Shown here: positions 1,008-38,412 of the stretch, piece after piece
Layout: each line of letters begins with the position of its first letter
How positions within the stretch are numbered: position 1 is the stretch's first letter
Source of the DNA: a virus
DNA length: 38,507 bases
Direction: 5' to 3' (one strand)
IMG/VR virus record: IMGVR_UViG_3300046689_000737
Location: 1 to 38,507 of that record
Translations under genes and position numbers: made by a program
Notes under the pieces: generated by a model
What the model was told of the DNA's origin: nothing
What the model saw: the letters and a program-made list of their open reading frames with translations, nothing else
Databases searched by the model: none

Positions 1008-2413
1008 GGGTGGAGACTCGATCCCAGTCTGGGCTGATCCTGCCGCAGGGTAAGGTTCTGAAGAAGGACCTTTACTTCCACGAGACAGGCTACCGTCCAC
1101 ACCAGGGTCAGCGCATCATCCACTACGGCACCAACGCCCGTCACCGGGTACTGGTCAACGGCCGACGCTGGGGTAAGACCCTGGCTGGTGCCAAGGAAGC
1201 CGAGCTGATGACGTTCATCCGGAATGGCTTCGGTCAGCCTCAGATCGGGTGGATCATCGGCCCCGAGTACTCCGACTGCGAGAAGGAGTTCCGGGTCATC
1301 TACGACTCGCTGCGCTCCTTGGGTGTGGACCAGGTCAGCACCCGGTTCGTGAACAATGCCGAGAACGGCAACATGCATATCCGGACCAAGTGGGGATTTG
1401 ATCTGCAGTGTAGGTCGGCTCGCCACCCGGAAAGTCTTGTCGGAGAGGGCCTCGACTTCGTCCTCATTGTTGAAGGCGGCAGACATAAGAGGAAGATGTG
1501 GGGCGACTACGTTCGTCCTGCCCTCTCCGACAAGCGAGGCTGGAGTTTCACCTCCGGGGTGCCCGAGGGTGCTACCGAGACCTCGCTGCTGTACTCGCTG
1601 TTCCAGCGCGGCCAGGATGAGACAAAGCGATCCTGGTGGTCCATGCAGATGCCCTCCTGGACCAACGATGTGATCTTCCCCGGCGGCCGCCAGGATCCTG
1701 AGATCGTCGAGGCCCGCGACGACTTGACTGAGGATGAGTTCCGACGCCAGTACGGCGCCGAGTTCGTCGATAACATCGGCCGAGTCATGAAAGAGTGGGA
1801 CAACGACGACCACATCCGGGACCTGGAGTACAACCGGAAGTGGCCGCTGTATGCCGCGGTCGACTTCGGCTACACCAACGACTGGGTGTGGCTATGGATC
1901 CAGACCGATGAGTGGATGAACATCTACGTAATCGGGGAGCACCGCTTCCGACTGCGTGACACCCACGACATCGCCGAGAACGAGCTGAAGCGCCATCCGC
2001 TGATGCCTCGGCTCAACTGCATCTACCCCGACCCGGCCGCCCCGGACGACGCGAACATCCTTCGCAGGGTGCTCGACAAGCCCACCATGTTGGGTACCGG
2101 CGGCGAACTCAAGACCCGCCTGGGCTTGATCCGGAATGCACTGAAGTTGCGTCCGGCTCACCTGCCCGACGGCCACCCCGAGAAGCGCGCTCAGCTCTGG
2201 GTGGACCGGTCATGCACCGACCTCATCTTCGAGATGAACGAGGGTTACCGCTGGCCGGAGAAGCGATCCGACGAGCGCAATGACTCGGAACTACCCATGG
2301 ACAAGGACAACCACGGTCCGGAAGCCCTGGGGCGGTTCTTTAAGGGTCACATGGAAAAGCGAACCGAGGCCAGACGGTCCCGGCAGGCCCAAGTACGAGT
2401 AAGGAGGCGCTGA
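1004..2413 (+). CDS. terL: Terminase, large subunit
   Basis: 469 aa DNA-packaging motor: an N-terminal ATPase powers translocation and a C-terminal RNase-H-fold nuclease cuts concatemers. The Walker A is GRRWGKT (residues 53-59), the terminase form of the P-loop. The Walker-B-like strand is FVLIVEGG, in which the usual Asp is Val but the catalytic Glu is kept. It is followed by the coupling motif SGVPEG. The nuclease acidic residues are in AVDFGYTND, IYPDPAAPDD and the late DKDNHGPEALGR. The start is TTG 1004, overlapping the previous stop, or GTG 1010 two codons in; the sequence does not decide. The portal follows after one base. Confidence 0.95.
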   Translation: MRVETRSQSGLILPQGKVLKKDLYFHETGYRPHQGQRIIHYGTNARHRVLVNGRRWGKTLAGAKEAELMTFIRNGFGQPQIGWIIGPEYSDCEKEFRVIYDSLRSLGVDQVSTRFVNNAENGNMHIRTKWGFDLQCRSARHPESLVGEGLDFVLIVEGGRHKRKMWGDYVRPALSDKRGWSFTSGVPEGATETSLLYSLFQRGQDETKRSWWSMQMPSWTNDVIFPGGRQDPEIVEARDDLTEDEFRRQYGAEFVDNIGRVMKEWDNDDHIRDLEYNRKWPLYAAVDFGYTNDWVWLWIQTDEWMNIYVIGEHRFRLRDTHDIAENELKRHPLMPRLNCIYPDPAAPDDANILRRVLDKPTMLGTGGELKTRLGLIRNALKLRPAHLPDGHPEKRAQLWVDRSCTDLIFEMNEGYRWPEKRSDERNDSELPMDKDNHGPEALGRFFKGHMEKRTEARRSRQAQVRVRRR

Positions 2414-2414
2414 A

Positions 2415-4151
2415 GTGGTTGGCTTTGACGACCAGGGCCCGTACACCAACGCGCTCATCCTGGGCGGGTCTGACGGGTACTCCTGGCTTCCGAAGAAGGC
2501 TCGCGAGCGCGCCCAGGCCTACCAGAAGTACGACCAGATCTACTGGAACGACATCACCCAGTATGCCATCCGGTACCTGGTCGGTGAGCAGCCGGTGTTC
2601 ATCCCGAACGCCCGCACGGTGGTCGACACCACGGCCCACTACTATCTCAAGGGCCTGGCAGTCAGCCTCAAGGAACCCGAGAAGTACACCAAGACCGCTG
2701 AGGCGCTGACCAAGTTCCTCAAGCGTGAGATGTTCCTTTCGAGGTTCCACACCGCGAAGCACACTGGGGTGACCCGGGGCGACTACTGCTTCCACCTGAC
2801 CGCCGACCCGGACAAGCCCGAGGACAGCCGCCTCTCGCTGAACTCGGTGCACCCAGGCAAGGTCATCTTGGACGAGGACCCCGAGAACTGCGAGCGGATC
2901 ATCCGAGCGCACCTCGTCGAGCGGATCCCTCACCCCGACCCGTCCAAGAAGGGCGAGTTTGCCATTAAGGAACTCGTCTACTGGTACGACGACGGCGACA
3001 GCGATGCCGACGACCAGGAAGACCTGGCTCCTTACCCTGACCAGGTAGTTCGGGATGACGACCGATCGGGCACCACCCGGCGGGTCATGCGGGCCGAGCG
3101 CATCTGGTCCACCGAGAAGCCGTGGTATGACGAGGAAGAGCGAGAGCTCATCACCATCACGCTTCCCGAAGAGGCACTGCCTGACCCCATCGACACCATC
3201 CCCGTCTACTGGTTCACGAACCTGGGCTGGGATGATGGACCGTACGGCTACTCTGAGCTCCGCGGCTTCGAGCGGAACTTCCAGAGCATCAGCCAGGTCA
3301 CTACAGACCAGGGTACTTCGCTCTCCCTCGAAGGCCTGGGTGTCTACGCCACCGACGGCGGTAAGCCGGTCAGCAATACCGGTGCCGAGGAGGACTGGGA
3401 GATTGGCCCGGGCAAGGTCATGGAAGTATCCCAGGGCGCGTACTTCCGTCGCGTCGAGGGTGTGGGATCGGTCAAGCCGAACATTGACCACATCGACTAC
3501 CTGGAAGCTAAGATTCGCGAGGCGGGAGGCCTCTCGGATGTGGCTCTGGGCCGAGTCGATGTCCAGACCGCCAACTCGGGCATTGCCCTGGCGATCAAGT
3601 TCATGCCCACGCTCGCCAAGCTCGACGAGCGCGACAAGACCGGCGTCGACCGCTTGACCCAGCTCTTCTATGACTGGCAGAAGTGGTACGAGGCCTACGA
3701 GGGGACCAAGCTCGACGGGGACATCGAGGTCACCATCGGCGACAAGTTGCCGACGGACCGCACGGGGCGGATCAACGAGCTGAACAACATGCTCGACCGC
3801 GGCGTGATCTCGAGGCAGTACTACCGGGCTGAGATGCAGAAGCTCGGGTACGAGTTCCCCGACGACATCGAAGACCAGATCGACGAGGAGAAGCAGAAGG
3901 AGGCCGAACAAGCGGCCGCCATGGCTCCTCCCGGTCTCGCAGAGAATGCGGTCGATGCCTCCACTGGCAACATGCCACCGCCGCCCGGCAACCAGCCGGG
4001 TCAGGTGACTCAGAAGAAGGCAGTCTTCAACCGTAGCAACAACAAGGCTCGGCCCAACGAAAGCGGTGGGACCGAGGCTGGACAGAAGGTCGGTAACCAG
4101 GCGCGGGGCGGGAAGCCCATCGTCACCAAGCGGGTACCGACCGCCAAGTAA
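2415..4151 (+). CDS. Portal protein (SPP1 gp6-like)
   Basis: 578 aa. It forms the dodecameric ring at the capsid vertex through which DNA passes. The GTG start at 2415 is set by AAGGAGG at 2401-2407 and lies one base after the terminase stop. The N-terminal clip/wing region is followed by the long stem helix (roughly residues 340-400) with GLSDVALGRVDVQTANSGIA, typical of SPP1-like portals. The C-terminal 80 residues are low-complexity and basic (NKARPNE..., KPIVTKRVPTAK). Length and position between terminase and scaffold fit the family. Confidence 0.93.
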   Translation: MVGFDDQGPYTNALILGGSDGYSWLPKKARERAQAYQKYDQIYWNDITQYAIRYLVGEQPVFIPNARTVVDTTAHYYLKGLAVSLKEPEKYTKTAEALTKFLKREMFLSRFHTAKHTGVTRGDYCFHLTADPDKPEDSRLSLNSVHPGKVILDEDPENCERIIRAHLVERIPHPDPSKKGEFAIKELVYWYDDGDSDADDQEDLAPYPDQVVRDDDRSGTTRRVMRAERIWSTEKPWYDEEERELITITLPEEALPDPIDTIPVYWFTNLGWDDGPYGYSELRGFERNFQSISQVTTDQGTSLSLEGLGVYATDGGKPVSNTGAEEDWEIGPGKVMEVSQGAYFRRVEGVGSVKPNIDHIDYLEAKIREAGGLSDVALGRVDVQTANSGIALAIKFMPTLAKLDERDKTGVDRLTQLFYDWQKWYEAYEGTKLDGDIEVTIGDKLPTDRTGRINELNNMLDRGVISRQYYRAEMQKLGYEFPDDIEDQIDEEKQKEAEQAAAMAPPGLAENAVDASTGNMPPPPGNQPGQVTQKKAVFNRSNNKARPNESGGTEAGQKVGNQARGGKPIVTKRVPTAK

Positions 4152-25082: not shown

Positions 25083-25118
25083 TGCCTCATCACCGCCCCA
25101 CTGACCGAGGAGCACTTA

Positions 25119-27397: not shown

Positions 27398-27435
27398 TTA
27401 CTAAACCGCCCCCGACCGAGGAGGTATTCCCGCAC

Positions 27436-34254: not shown

Positions 34255-34287
34255 CGTCTCACGACATTGACCGAGGAGGAACTGCCC

Positions 34288-36329: not shown

Positions 36330-36376
36330 CATCCATACATGCCCCGATTGGGGGCAGACCGAGGAAGGTATTACCC

Positions 36377-37063
36377 GTGGCCGAAGCAGCAACCACCGCG
36401 ATTCTTGACTTCTCTGGGGTCAAGGAAGGCGGAGCCTCTTTCAACAAGAAGCGCGTCCCCACCGGCGACTACCTGGCGAAGATCACCAAGGTCCAGGACT
36501 CGCCGACGAAGGACGAGAAGGAGCCCCAGTGGCTCTACACTATCGAGCTGGTCGACAAGTACACCGACCGCAAGTTCCCCTTCTACTGCAAGCTGGTGCC
36601 GAACCAGCTCTGGAAGCTGCGGAACCTCTTCCTCGCCGCCGGCATCACCATCCCGAAGCAGAAGGTCAAGCTCAACCCCAACCGCGTGGTCGGCAAGCTG
36701 ATCGGCATCACGCTCGAGGACGACGAGTACGACGGCAAGCTTCAGTCCAACATCTCGCAGACCTTCCCGGCGTCCGAGCTCGAGGACGGCGAGGACCCAG
36801 AGGGTGACGAGGAGGACACCGACGACGAGGCGACGGACCTCGACGAGGAGGACGAGGAGCAGGTCGACGACGCCGAGGAAGAAGAGGACGAGGAGGAAGA
36901 GGAGGAGCCCGAGCCGGAGCCGGTGAAGACCAAGGCTCGCATCCCCGGCCAGCGCAAGACCTCCCCGGCCGCGGCCAAGAAGGCGCCGGCTCGACGTGCC
37001 GCGGCGAAGGTCGCCGAGGTGGATGACGACGAGCTCGAGGAGCTTGACCTCGACGACCTCTAG
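36377..37063 (+). CDS. SSB-like protein with long acidic tail
   Basis: 228 aa from GTG 36377. Residues about 1-130 match the DUF669-type phage ssDNA-binding fold found next to Sak4 proteins (VPTGDYLAKITKVQDSPTKD, LVPNQLWKLRNLFLAAGI). A stretch of some 50 almost uninterrupted Asp/Glu follows. Next comes a basic Lys/Ala/Arg segment, and the end is acidic and Leu-rich (DDDELEELDLDDL), like the protein-recruiting tip of bacterial SSB. It probably coats ssDNA and recruits the polymerase, helicase or Sak4. Confidence 0.85.
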   Translation: MAEAATTAILDFSGVKEGGASFNKKRVPTGDYLAKITKVQDSPTKDEKEPQWLYTIELVDKYTDRKFPFYCKLVPNQLWKLRNLFLAAGITIPKQKVKLNPNRVVGKLIGITLEDDEYDGKLQSNISQTFPASELEDGEDPEGDEEDTDDEATDLDEEDEEQVDDAEEEEDEEEEEEPEPEPVKTKARIPGQRKTSPAAAKKAPARRAAAKVAEVDDDELEELDLDDL

Positions 37064-37301
37064 GCCGAGACGGGCGAGCGATTGACTCAAAGTCTATCCC
37101 CCGTCCCTAGCTCGTCCTTGACCTCTCATAGACCGAGATGAGATGATCATACTGCTGGATCGAGGGCCTTACCCCGAGGCTGGTCTCCCACCTGCTGAGG
37201 TCCTCGACCTGGTATAAGTTTGGGCAGCCCGGTTTCAAAATGCCTCCTCGGTCAAAGAAGGTCGACTCCGGGCTGCCCTCTCTCATGTATTAGGCGGGAA
37301 C
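37064..37301 (+). other. Structured 238-nt gap with promoter and long inverted repeat
   Basis: No gene is seen. A promoter candidate is TTGACC (37118-37123), 18 bp, GATGAT (37142-37147), which would give a leader of about 150 nt before ATG 37302. The leader contains an outer TCGAGG...CCTCGA pair. Further on there is a perfect 11-bp inverted repeat (37222-37232 with 37268-37278, GGGCAGCCCGG) enclosing 35 nt, directly before the VRR-NUC gene. It could be an attenuator, a small RNA or a protein-binding site. Confidence 0.55.
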
Positions 37302-37646
37302 ATGTCTCAACCAGAGTCCAAGCTATCCCGAGCAATCCTCACCGCCCTCCGCAAGGAGGGGGTCTTCTGCTTCAAGTTCCACGGCGGACCACTCACGATG
37401 GTCGGGGTTCCCGACATCATCGCATGTGTGGACGGTCGCTTCGTGGGCATCGAGACGAAGATGCCGGCGAAACGCAAGAACGTCAGCCCCGCGCAGAGGC
37501 GCATTCACGAGCTCATCGTGCAGGCGGGCGGCGTCGCTGTGGTAGTCTGCGGCGTCCGTGAAGCGCTGGGCATCGTGCATGAACTGCGCATCGCGCCAGG
37601 TGCGCCGCCCGTCCGTGCGATCATCCAGGAGGATACCGCATCATGA
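37302..37646 (+). CDS. VRR-NUC domain nuclease
   Basis: 114 aa. The PD-(D/E)XK core is visible: GVPDII (Asp38) and GIETK (Glu51, Lys53), followed by SPAQRRIHELIVQAGG, the conserved helix of stand-alone VRR-NUC proteins. These are structure-specific nucleases and are candidate Holliday-junction resolvases in phages. It would resolve recombination intermediates or debranch DNA before packaging. It sits after a structured leader, and its stop overlaps the DUF2829 gene (ATGA). Confidence 0.9.
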   Translation: MSQPESKLSRAILTALRKEGVFCFKFHGGPLTMVGVPDIIACVDGRFVGIETKMPAKRKNVSPAQRRIHELIVQAGGVAVVVCGVREALGIVHELRIAPGAPPVRAIIQEDTAS

Positions 37647-38038
37647 AGCTCGAAGAGGTTTGGTCTGAGCTTCGCCGGGGTAAGCGTCTCGGCAACGGCC
37701 ATTGGGACTCGGGGATGTACATCGTCCTCCAGCCGGGGTACCCCGAGGGCATCCCGATCAACAAGAACACCTCAGATGCCACCGGCCTCCCGATGGGCAC
37801 GGTCAAGCGATTCCGGCCCTACGTGATGCTCCACACCCTCGACGACGCCTTCGTGCCCTTCGTCATGACCCAATCCGACATGCTCAGCGAGTACTGGTTC
37901 ATCATCCCCGACAACCCTCAGGGTGCTGCGCCTACCCCGAACCCCGCGGTCATCGGCTACAACTTCGAGGATCCTCAGCCCGCGATCCGTGTGAACCGAT
38001 GCAAGAACCCCAACTCCGAGGGCGACTGCAACTGCTGA
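37643..38038 (+). CDS. tad2: DUF2829 protein, Tad2-like (anti-Thoeris candidate)
   Basis: 131 aa. DUF2829 features occur in order: an N-terminal WSELRRGKRLGNGHWDSGMYI (GKxxxxxxWxxGM), the insert PINKNTSDATGLPMGT, PYVMLHTLDDAFVPF and the closing SDMLSEYWFIIP. Tad2, a DUF2829 protein, sequesters cyclic ADP-ribose-type signals and so blocks Thoeris defence. The C-terminal 40 residues (with NRCKNP...GDCNC) are extra compared with the shortest members and carry three Cys. It is coupled to the VRR-NUC gene by ATGA and followed by a terminator. The family is clear; the anti-defence activity in this phage is inference. Confidence 0.82.
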   Translation: MKLEEVWSELRRGKRLGNGHWDSGMYIVLQPGYPEGIPINKNTSDATGLPMGTVKRFRPYVMLHTLDDAFVPFVMTQSDMLSEYWFIIPDNPQGAAPTPNPAVIGYNFEDPQPAIRVNRCKNPNSEGDCNC

Positions 38039-38088: not shown

Positions 38089-38412
38089 TCAGCCGACGGG
38101 GCGGATGAGCTCCTTGTCGATCTTGCCGGTGAGGATGTCCCGCATGGAGCGGAAGACGTCGACCATGTTGACCGTGTTGAGATCGGGAAGGTCAGCCCAG
38201 TTGTTCACCCCCGGCATCAGTCGCTGGGCGACCCAGATGCCATCCTCGAGCGTCCACTGAACCTGTACCACCCAGTTGCTGCCCTCGACCTTGCGGGCAA
38301 CTTCCAGCCTCTTCAGGGTCTTCTGTGCCATCTTCCTCAGCTCCTCGCACTTGATGCAGATTGTACCCCAACTACCACCATGGCGGGGGCATTTGAACTT
38401 CGGCTGACCCAT
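38089..38412 (-). CDS. Hypothetical zinc-binding protein
   Basis: 107 aa. The N-terminus CPRHGGSWGTICIKC gives a CxxH...CxxC-type zinc site. The rest is mixed alpha/beta (LKRLEVARKVEGSNWVVQVQ, MVDVFRSMRDILTGKIDKEL). Its ATG overlaps the stop of the next minus-strand gene upstream (TGATG), so both belong to one operon running towards the terminator. Function unknown. Confidence 0.75.
   Translation of the reverse strand: MGQPKFKCPRHGGSWGTICIKCEELRKMAQKTLKRLEVARKVEGSNWVVQVQWTLEDGIWVAQRLMPGVNNWADLPDLNTVNMVDVFRSMRDILTGKIDKELIRPVG

Follow-up and report, generated by a model that had tools for sequence, protein, structure and literature searches.

Proteins of the Tad2 family have been linked to the signals that underlie bacterial immunity. 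The Tad2 of SPO1 binds gcADPR, and that of Myroides (ModTad2) is reported to bind His-ADPR and to block type II Thoeris (PMC13299392). HgmTad2 also binds cyclic dinucleotides, and its PDB entries have been solved with cADPR and cGG. An insertion present in HgmTad2 and SptTad2 has been reported for cyclic dinucleotide binding, and the gcADPR pocket of the SPO1 structure has been assigned to the β1-β2 loop, the β3-β4 loop, strand β4, the β4-α3 loop and helix α3 (review, PMC12043709). We analysed a 38,507-nt stretch of viral DNA (the whole stretch is referred to below as the window) carrying a Tad2-like gene whose product keeps the scaffold of this family and departs from it at residues of the pocket-forming elements.

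Family, fold and tail of the Tad2-like protein

A 131-codon open reading frame on the plus strand (37643-38038; ATG at 37643, stop ending at 38038) lies where the original prediction, made from the sequence, had placed a DUF2829/Tad2-like gene. Its 131-aa product matched PF11195 (Tad2-like, formerly DUF2829) over residues 1-88 and across the full model (Pfam, E = 1.5e-10, 41.9 bits against a curated cut-off of 25 bits), a profile score that places it in the family and that, at sequence level, is far above chance. PHROG 1048 and the PDB Tad2 chains concurred with Pfam on a Tad2-like protein; NCBIfam and PADLOC returned no name for it. No other PF11195 gene was counted in the 38.5-kb viral contig.

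An AlphaFold2 model built on an alignment with 77 homologues comprised a predicted folded domain (residues 1-90, pLDDT ~ 97) and a tail predicted to be disordered (residues 91-131, pLDDT 50-60). Tad2 entries ranked first in comparisons of the model by Foldseek and VIA-align (Z 10.2-11.6), the best solved matches being 9eib (Z = 11.6), 8v3e, 8wje, 8wjd, 8kbi and 8smf, while the first unrelated chain scored 6.4 and the remaining unrelated rows lower. Among these matches, 9eib is Tad2 with His-ADPR, 8smf contains gcADPR and 8kbi-k are HgmTad2/AcrIIA7. The modelled protein has the Tad2 fold.

Codons 32-48 (GYPEGIPINKNTSDATG; 37736-37786, plus strand) encode an insertion which is conserved in most relatives and missing from the solved Tad2 sequences aligned. 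A large PF11195 subfamily with a YP[DE]GIPxN insertion was found in at least 133 viral stretches (A3 alignment), and no solved structure of the YPEGIPIN subfamily was present among the PDB matches found. Other domain arrangements were also encountered: four stretches (L070, L085, L094 and L104) encode proteins with a tandem pair of DUF2829-like domains, of which the first has 'HW' in place of 'GWNG', and a Vibrio phage protein (L006, 2734-3246) fuses a crAss001_48 domain to a Tad2-like one.

The Cys-containing C-terminal extension that had been noticed in the sequence is present and in frame (approximately residues 91-131, with Cys at 119, 129 and 131). Most homologues have no tail, those of L012, L030 and L032 are short and different, the Pro/Ala-rich tail shows only a loose likeness to that of L011, and no homologue shares its Cys pattern. 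A zinc site or second domain formed by the Cys residues was considered and found unsupported, given the low pLDDT and the lack of a conserved Cys pattern. The proposal that this extension might confer an altered ligand range or a second function survives in part: an altered range is suggested by changes in the pocket described below, whereas the tail is modelled at low confidence and its Cys pattern is not conserved, so that at the level of sequence and model it lends no support to a second function.

Gene order and leader

The gene lies, as predicted, directly beside a nuclease. This VRR-NUC/Holliday-resolvase-like protein (114 aa; 37302-37646, plus strand) is encoded by a gene whose stop overlaps the start of the Tad2-like gene (ATGA), an arrangement which suggests coupled translation of the two. 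It is 54.7% identical to Shrew gp87, annotated as 'VRR-Nuc domain protein', and matches the PHROG 93 endonucleases (E = 1e-20); a PD-x-ExK pattern is visible in PDIIACVDGRFVGIETK. Pfam named no VRR-NUC domain and gave only a sub-threshold Hjc match, and the assignment to VRR-NUC is made from homology together with the PD-(D/E)xK residues. Upstream lie an SSB-like gene (36377-37063, plus strand; 64% and 74% identity to L011 and L012, respectively; Shrew gp86 is annotated 'SBB protein') and, further away, genes for a Sak4-like ATPase, a Cas4-like exonuclease and DNA polymerase I. Downstream, on the minus strand (38089-38412), a 107-aa protein carries a Cys/His cluster (CPRHGG...CIKCEE) resembling a small zinc-binding motif; no family matched it above threshold.

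The order SSB, leader, VRR-NUC, Tad2 is kept in the related phage contigs L011, L012 and L032. A fourth contig, L030, has the same SSB and nuclease with an RNase AS-like gene between nuclease and Tad2 (an RNase AS/Rv2179c-like 3'-5' exoribonuclease, 2409-2993, plus strand, in what is the closest relative). The possibility that every phage of this type carries Tad2 was considered and rejected: in Shrew the nuclease is followed by gp88, unrelated to Tad2, and around the nuclease of L013, L014, L022 and L023 we found no Tad2-like gene. Since the Tad2-like gene is present in L011, L012, L032 and L030 but was not seen at the nuclease of these other phages, the slot behind the nuclease is variable, as expected of an accessory gene, with Tad2 present across several phages. 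An actinobacterial host is likely from sequence comparison, because, among named phages, Curtobacterium phage Shrew is the closest at DNA level and relatives of the nuclease occur mostly in Gordonia and Microbacterium phages.

The early expression that the original prediction drew from placement at the end of the replication block is not supported by the sequence, nor is transcription together with that block, as the VRR-NUC/Tad2 pair is separated from it by a 238-nt intergenic leader (37064-37301, between SSB and nuclease) with conserved promoter-like and hairpin elements of its own. The putative promoter-like element preceding the pair (TTGACC-N18-GATGAT, 37118-37147, plus strand) matches the consensus, and the TTGAC and TGAG..GAT blocks of the leader are conserved in L011, L012, L030 and L032. 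The same four contigs share, at the same place, a hairpin which in the window reads GGGCAGCCCGG...CCTCCTCGGTCAAAG...CCGGGCTGCCC (37222-37278, plus strand; 11-pair stem, z = -4.7) and which occurs in L023 in a diverged form. All cells of the 11-pair stem pair in five phages, five pairs being changed on both sides, compared to 29-49% in slid controls. Rfam had no match for the leader.

The hairpin loop (CCTCCTCGGTCAAAG in the window, TCCTCGGTCAAAG in the relatives) is the reverse complement of CTTTGACCGAGGAGG, and CCTCCTCGGTCAAAG is antisense to a start-associated motif of the ribosome site (TTGACCGAGGAGG) that precedes many genes in these phages. In the four relatives TGACCGAGGA occurred 26 times, against none for a reversed-pattern control; by our count, four sites were the hairpins, 18 lay 6-13 nt before a gene start and four were elsewhere. 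The window contained 11 matches to the motif against 1.7 expected, several of them inside genes; it is exact before the exonuclease gene and mismatched before the SSB gene, and the copies on the plus strand before the exonuclease (34267-34279), SSB (36355-36365), a small ORF (25101-25111) and a nucleotide-kinase-like ORF (27412-27422) are exact or carry one to two mismatches. In the more distant L023 the motif is CGACCGAGGA and the hairpin loop is altered to match. These data suggest a candidate trans-acting phage RNA regulator that would pair with many ribosome-binding leaders; loop and motif may instead represent a DNA-binding site.

In cluster K mycobacteriophages, a single opposite-facing copy of the Start Associated Sequence was reported in 2011 as having no obvious tie to a gene start (PMC3203893). 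We observed that such a copy sits within a strong hairpin loop in Anaya (L200, JF704106, 59870; z = -3.0) and Adephagia (L201, JF704105, 58682; z = -6.7), an arrangement matching that of the window phage, and Rfam gave no match in Adephagia. A 2019 study by Dedrick is cited for regulation by these motifs (PMC12699233), and the arrangement may have been described before.

Replaced pocket residues and possible ligands

Conservation was assessed across 114 aligned copies, of which 110 were distinct, with pocket positions mapped from the element list of the review (PMC12043709) and the secondary structure of the model, not from coordinates. The β1-β2 loop is nearly invariant in these copies (R18 in 109, G20 in 105, N22 in 106, the next glycine in 104 and W21 in all 114), and W73, S76 and D84 are retained in 111/114, 105/114 and 110/114, respectively. 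In the window copy, codons 18-24 of this loop (37694-37714, plus strand) read N G H W D S G where the canonical loop is R x G W N G K/x G, so that one residue is missing, and codons 73-85, covering the end of β4, the β4-α3 loop and α3 (37859-37897, plus strand), read F V M T Q S D M L S E Y W against W x x S Q T D x L A E D W. The family signatures are thereby shifted from RxGWNG to NxHWD, from VPW to VPF and from (E/D)DW to EYW; W21, Q77, D79, W85, P59, Y60 and the insertion YPEGIPINxNT are kept. Judged on the model, the seven changes (R18N, G20H, N22D, the glycine deletion, W73F, S76T and D84Y) lie inside or border the listed pocket elements. As all the conserved residues of these elements (RxGWNG loop, W73, S76 and D84) except W21 are replaced, we do not file the window copy as a gcADPR or His-ADPR sponge. 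The DUF2829 landmarks of the original prediction are thus borne out by profile and fold, but not at several near-invariant residues of the family; likewise, the structure prediction it proposed for the Tad2 ligand pocket returned the fold (Z up to 11.6) with near-invariant residues of the pocket elements changed.

At 18 conserved positions the window copy departs from the family nine times and L030 eight times, compared to a mean of 0.99 for the other 112 rows; the Tad2 of SPO1L3 departs at three, and only very divergent second-domain or outlying copies approach 8-9 of 18. Changes were found at seven of ten such positions in pocket elements versus two of eight elsewhere, a difference which alone is not significant (Fisher p = 0.15).

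Nearly all of these changes recur in the L030 copy (N18, H20, Y73, T76 and H84, with a loop one residue shorter), which groups with the window copy in a supported clade (bootstrap 100, SH-aLRT 98, stem 0.57). An altered pocket was seen in these two members only: scans with P0001, A2 and L030 as queries yielded no third one, and a single-sequence search of the genome contigs found no relative of the window protein. The tree is compatible with an origin of the pair from the canonical copies of this locus as well as with their replacement by it. The two genes (dN = 0.32, dS ~ 1.1) appear, as far as can be told from their sequences, to be under purifying selection. Pseudogene decay is disfavoured by the open frame, the identity of 53 of 90 aligned residues between the two and a dN/dS of ~ 0.3, read with dS near saturation; in our reading of sequence and model, the pocket would have been rebuilt rather than have decayed in both.

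Family, fold, gene order and the concerted replacement of near-invariant residues, with scaffold and insertion kept, are established here. The explanation we prefer, with moderate confidence, is a small-molecule sponge of Tad2 fold with a rebuilt pocket for a non-canonical or differently bound ligand. By analogy with known Tad2 proteins, such a sponge would be an oligomer (we infer a tetramer) with ligand pockets between its subunits, in which a small signalling molecule of the host could be captured so that the host effector would stay off; binding of a small molecule, a counter-defence role and a changed ligand are likewise what we infer. Because the pocket is rebuilt in both the window copy and L030, the molecule would be other than the canonical Thoeris signal, or would be held differently, and the protein probably has another ligand than the textbook signal, or a new job. 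Equally, with N22 and W73 gone, the protein may no longer bind a ligand.

Our second choice, which we consider unlikely, is an ordinary anti-Thoeris Tad2 that has kept its ability to sequester gcADPR or His-ADPR and to block Thoeris. It would account for the common fold, the retention of W21, Q77, D79 and W85 and the best structural match being the His-ADPR-bound 9eib, and Tad2 proteins of low mutual identity do bind ADPR-type signals (PMC13299392). However, R18, N22, the loop glycine, W73 and D84 are gone, though kept even in the distant SPO1L3 Tad2, and with near-invariant residues of pocket-forming elements changed, a direct anti-Thoeris function is not made likely by the sequence.

A lost pocket on a re-used scaffold, which might for example bind the co-translated nuclease or serve as a structural or DNA-metabolism part, is our third choice and seems improbable. 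The concerted loss of pocket residues, the start overlapping the nuclease gene and the conserved gene order are consistent with it, but the same slot holds canonical copies in L011, L012 and L032, L030 is altered even though a different gene separates its nuclease and Tad2, and the altered copies show strong conservation of the subfamily insertion. A direct AcrIIA7-like anti-CRISPR action on Cas9 is very improbable: AcrIIA7 is of PF11195 type and matches the window protein, in sequence only and weakly at single-sequence level (E = 0.23), but in the PDB AcrIIA7 and HgmTad2 are the same sequence, with structures containing cADPR and cGG, and the Acr label is therefore no pointer to a Cas9 interface.

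Within the preferred reading of a sponge with a rebuilt pocket, we raise tentatively a more specific possibility, namely that in the window/L030 lineage a Tad2-fold sponge was retargeted to an immune signal bound by no known Tad2, at a locus that is canonical in relatives. If true, the ligand would point to a signalling molecule or a defence of Actinomycetota that has yet to be described.

Comparison with described Tad2 proteins

The window protein shares with the Tad2 of SPO1 and SPO1L3 (8sme-8smg, 8wje) the PF11195 fold, the order of elements and W21, Q77, D79 and W85, whereas SPO1 Tad2 has RxGWNG, W73 and D84 and is without the YPEGIPIN insertion and the tail. ModTad2 (8v3e, 9eib) is the best structural match (Z = 11.6), but has canonical GWNGKGM and AEDW, no YPEGIPIN insertion and ~ 25% identity. 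HgmTad2/AcrIIA7 (8kbi-8kbm, 9kzr) and SptTad2 (8wjd) share the fold and bear an insertion at the same place; that insertion, however, is unlike YPEGIPINKNTxxATG, and their GWNGKGM and AxDW are canonical. The orthologues that occupy the same slot in L011, L012, L032 and L030 have the same succession of SSB, leader hairpin, VRR-NUC (then the extra gene in L030) and Tad2-like gene and the same insertion; their tails differ, and the pocket residues are canonical in L011, L012 and L032 and altered only in L030. An intact scaffold with a deeply changed pocket, set beside canonical orthologues from the same slot, forms a natural pair for testing how the ligand of a sponge changes.
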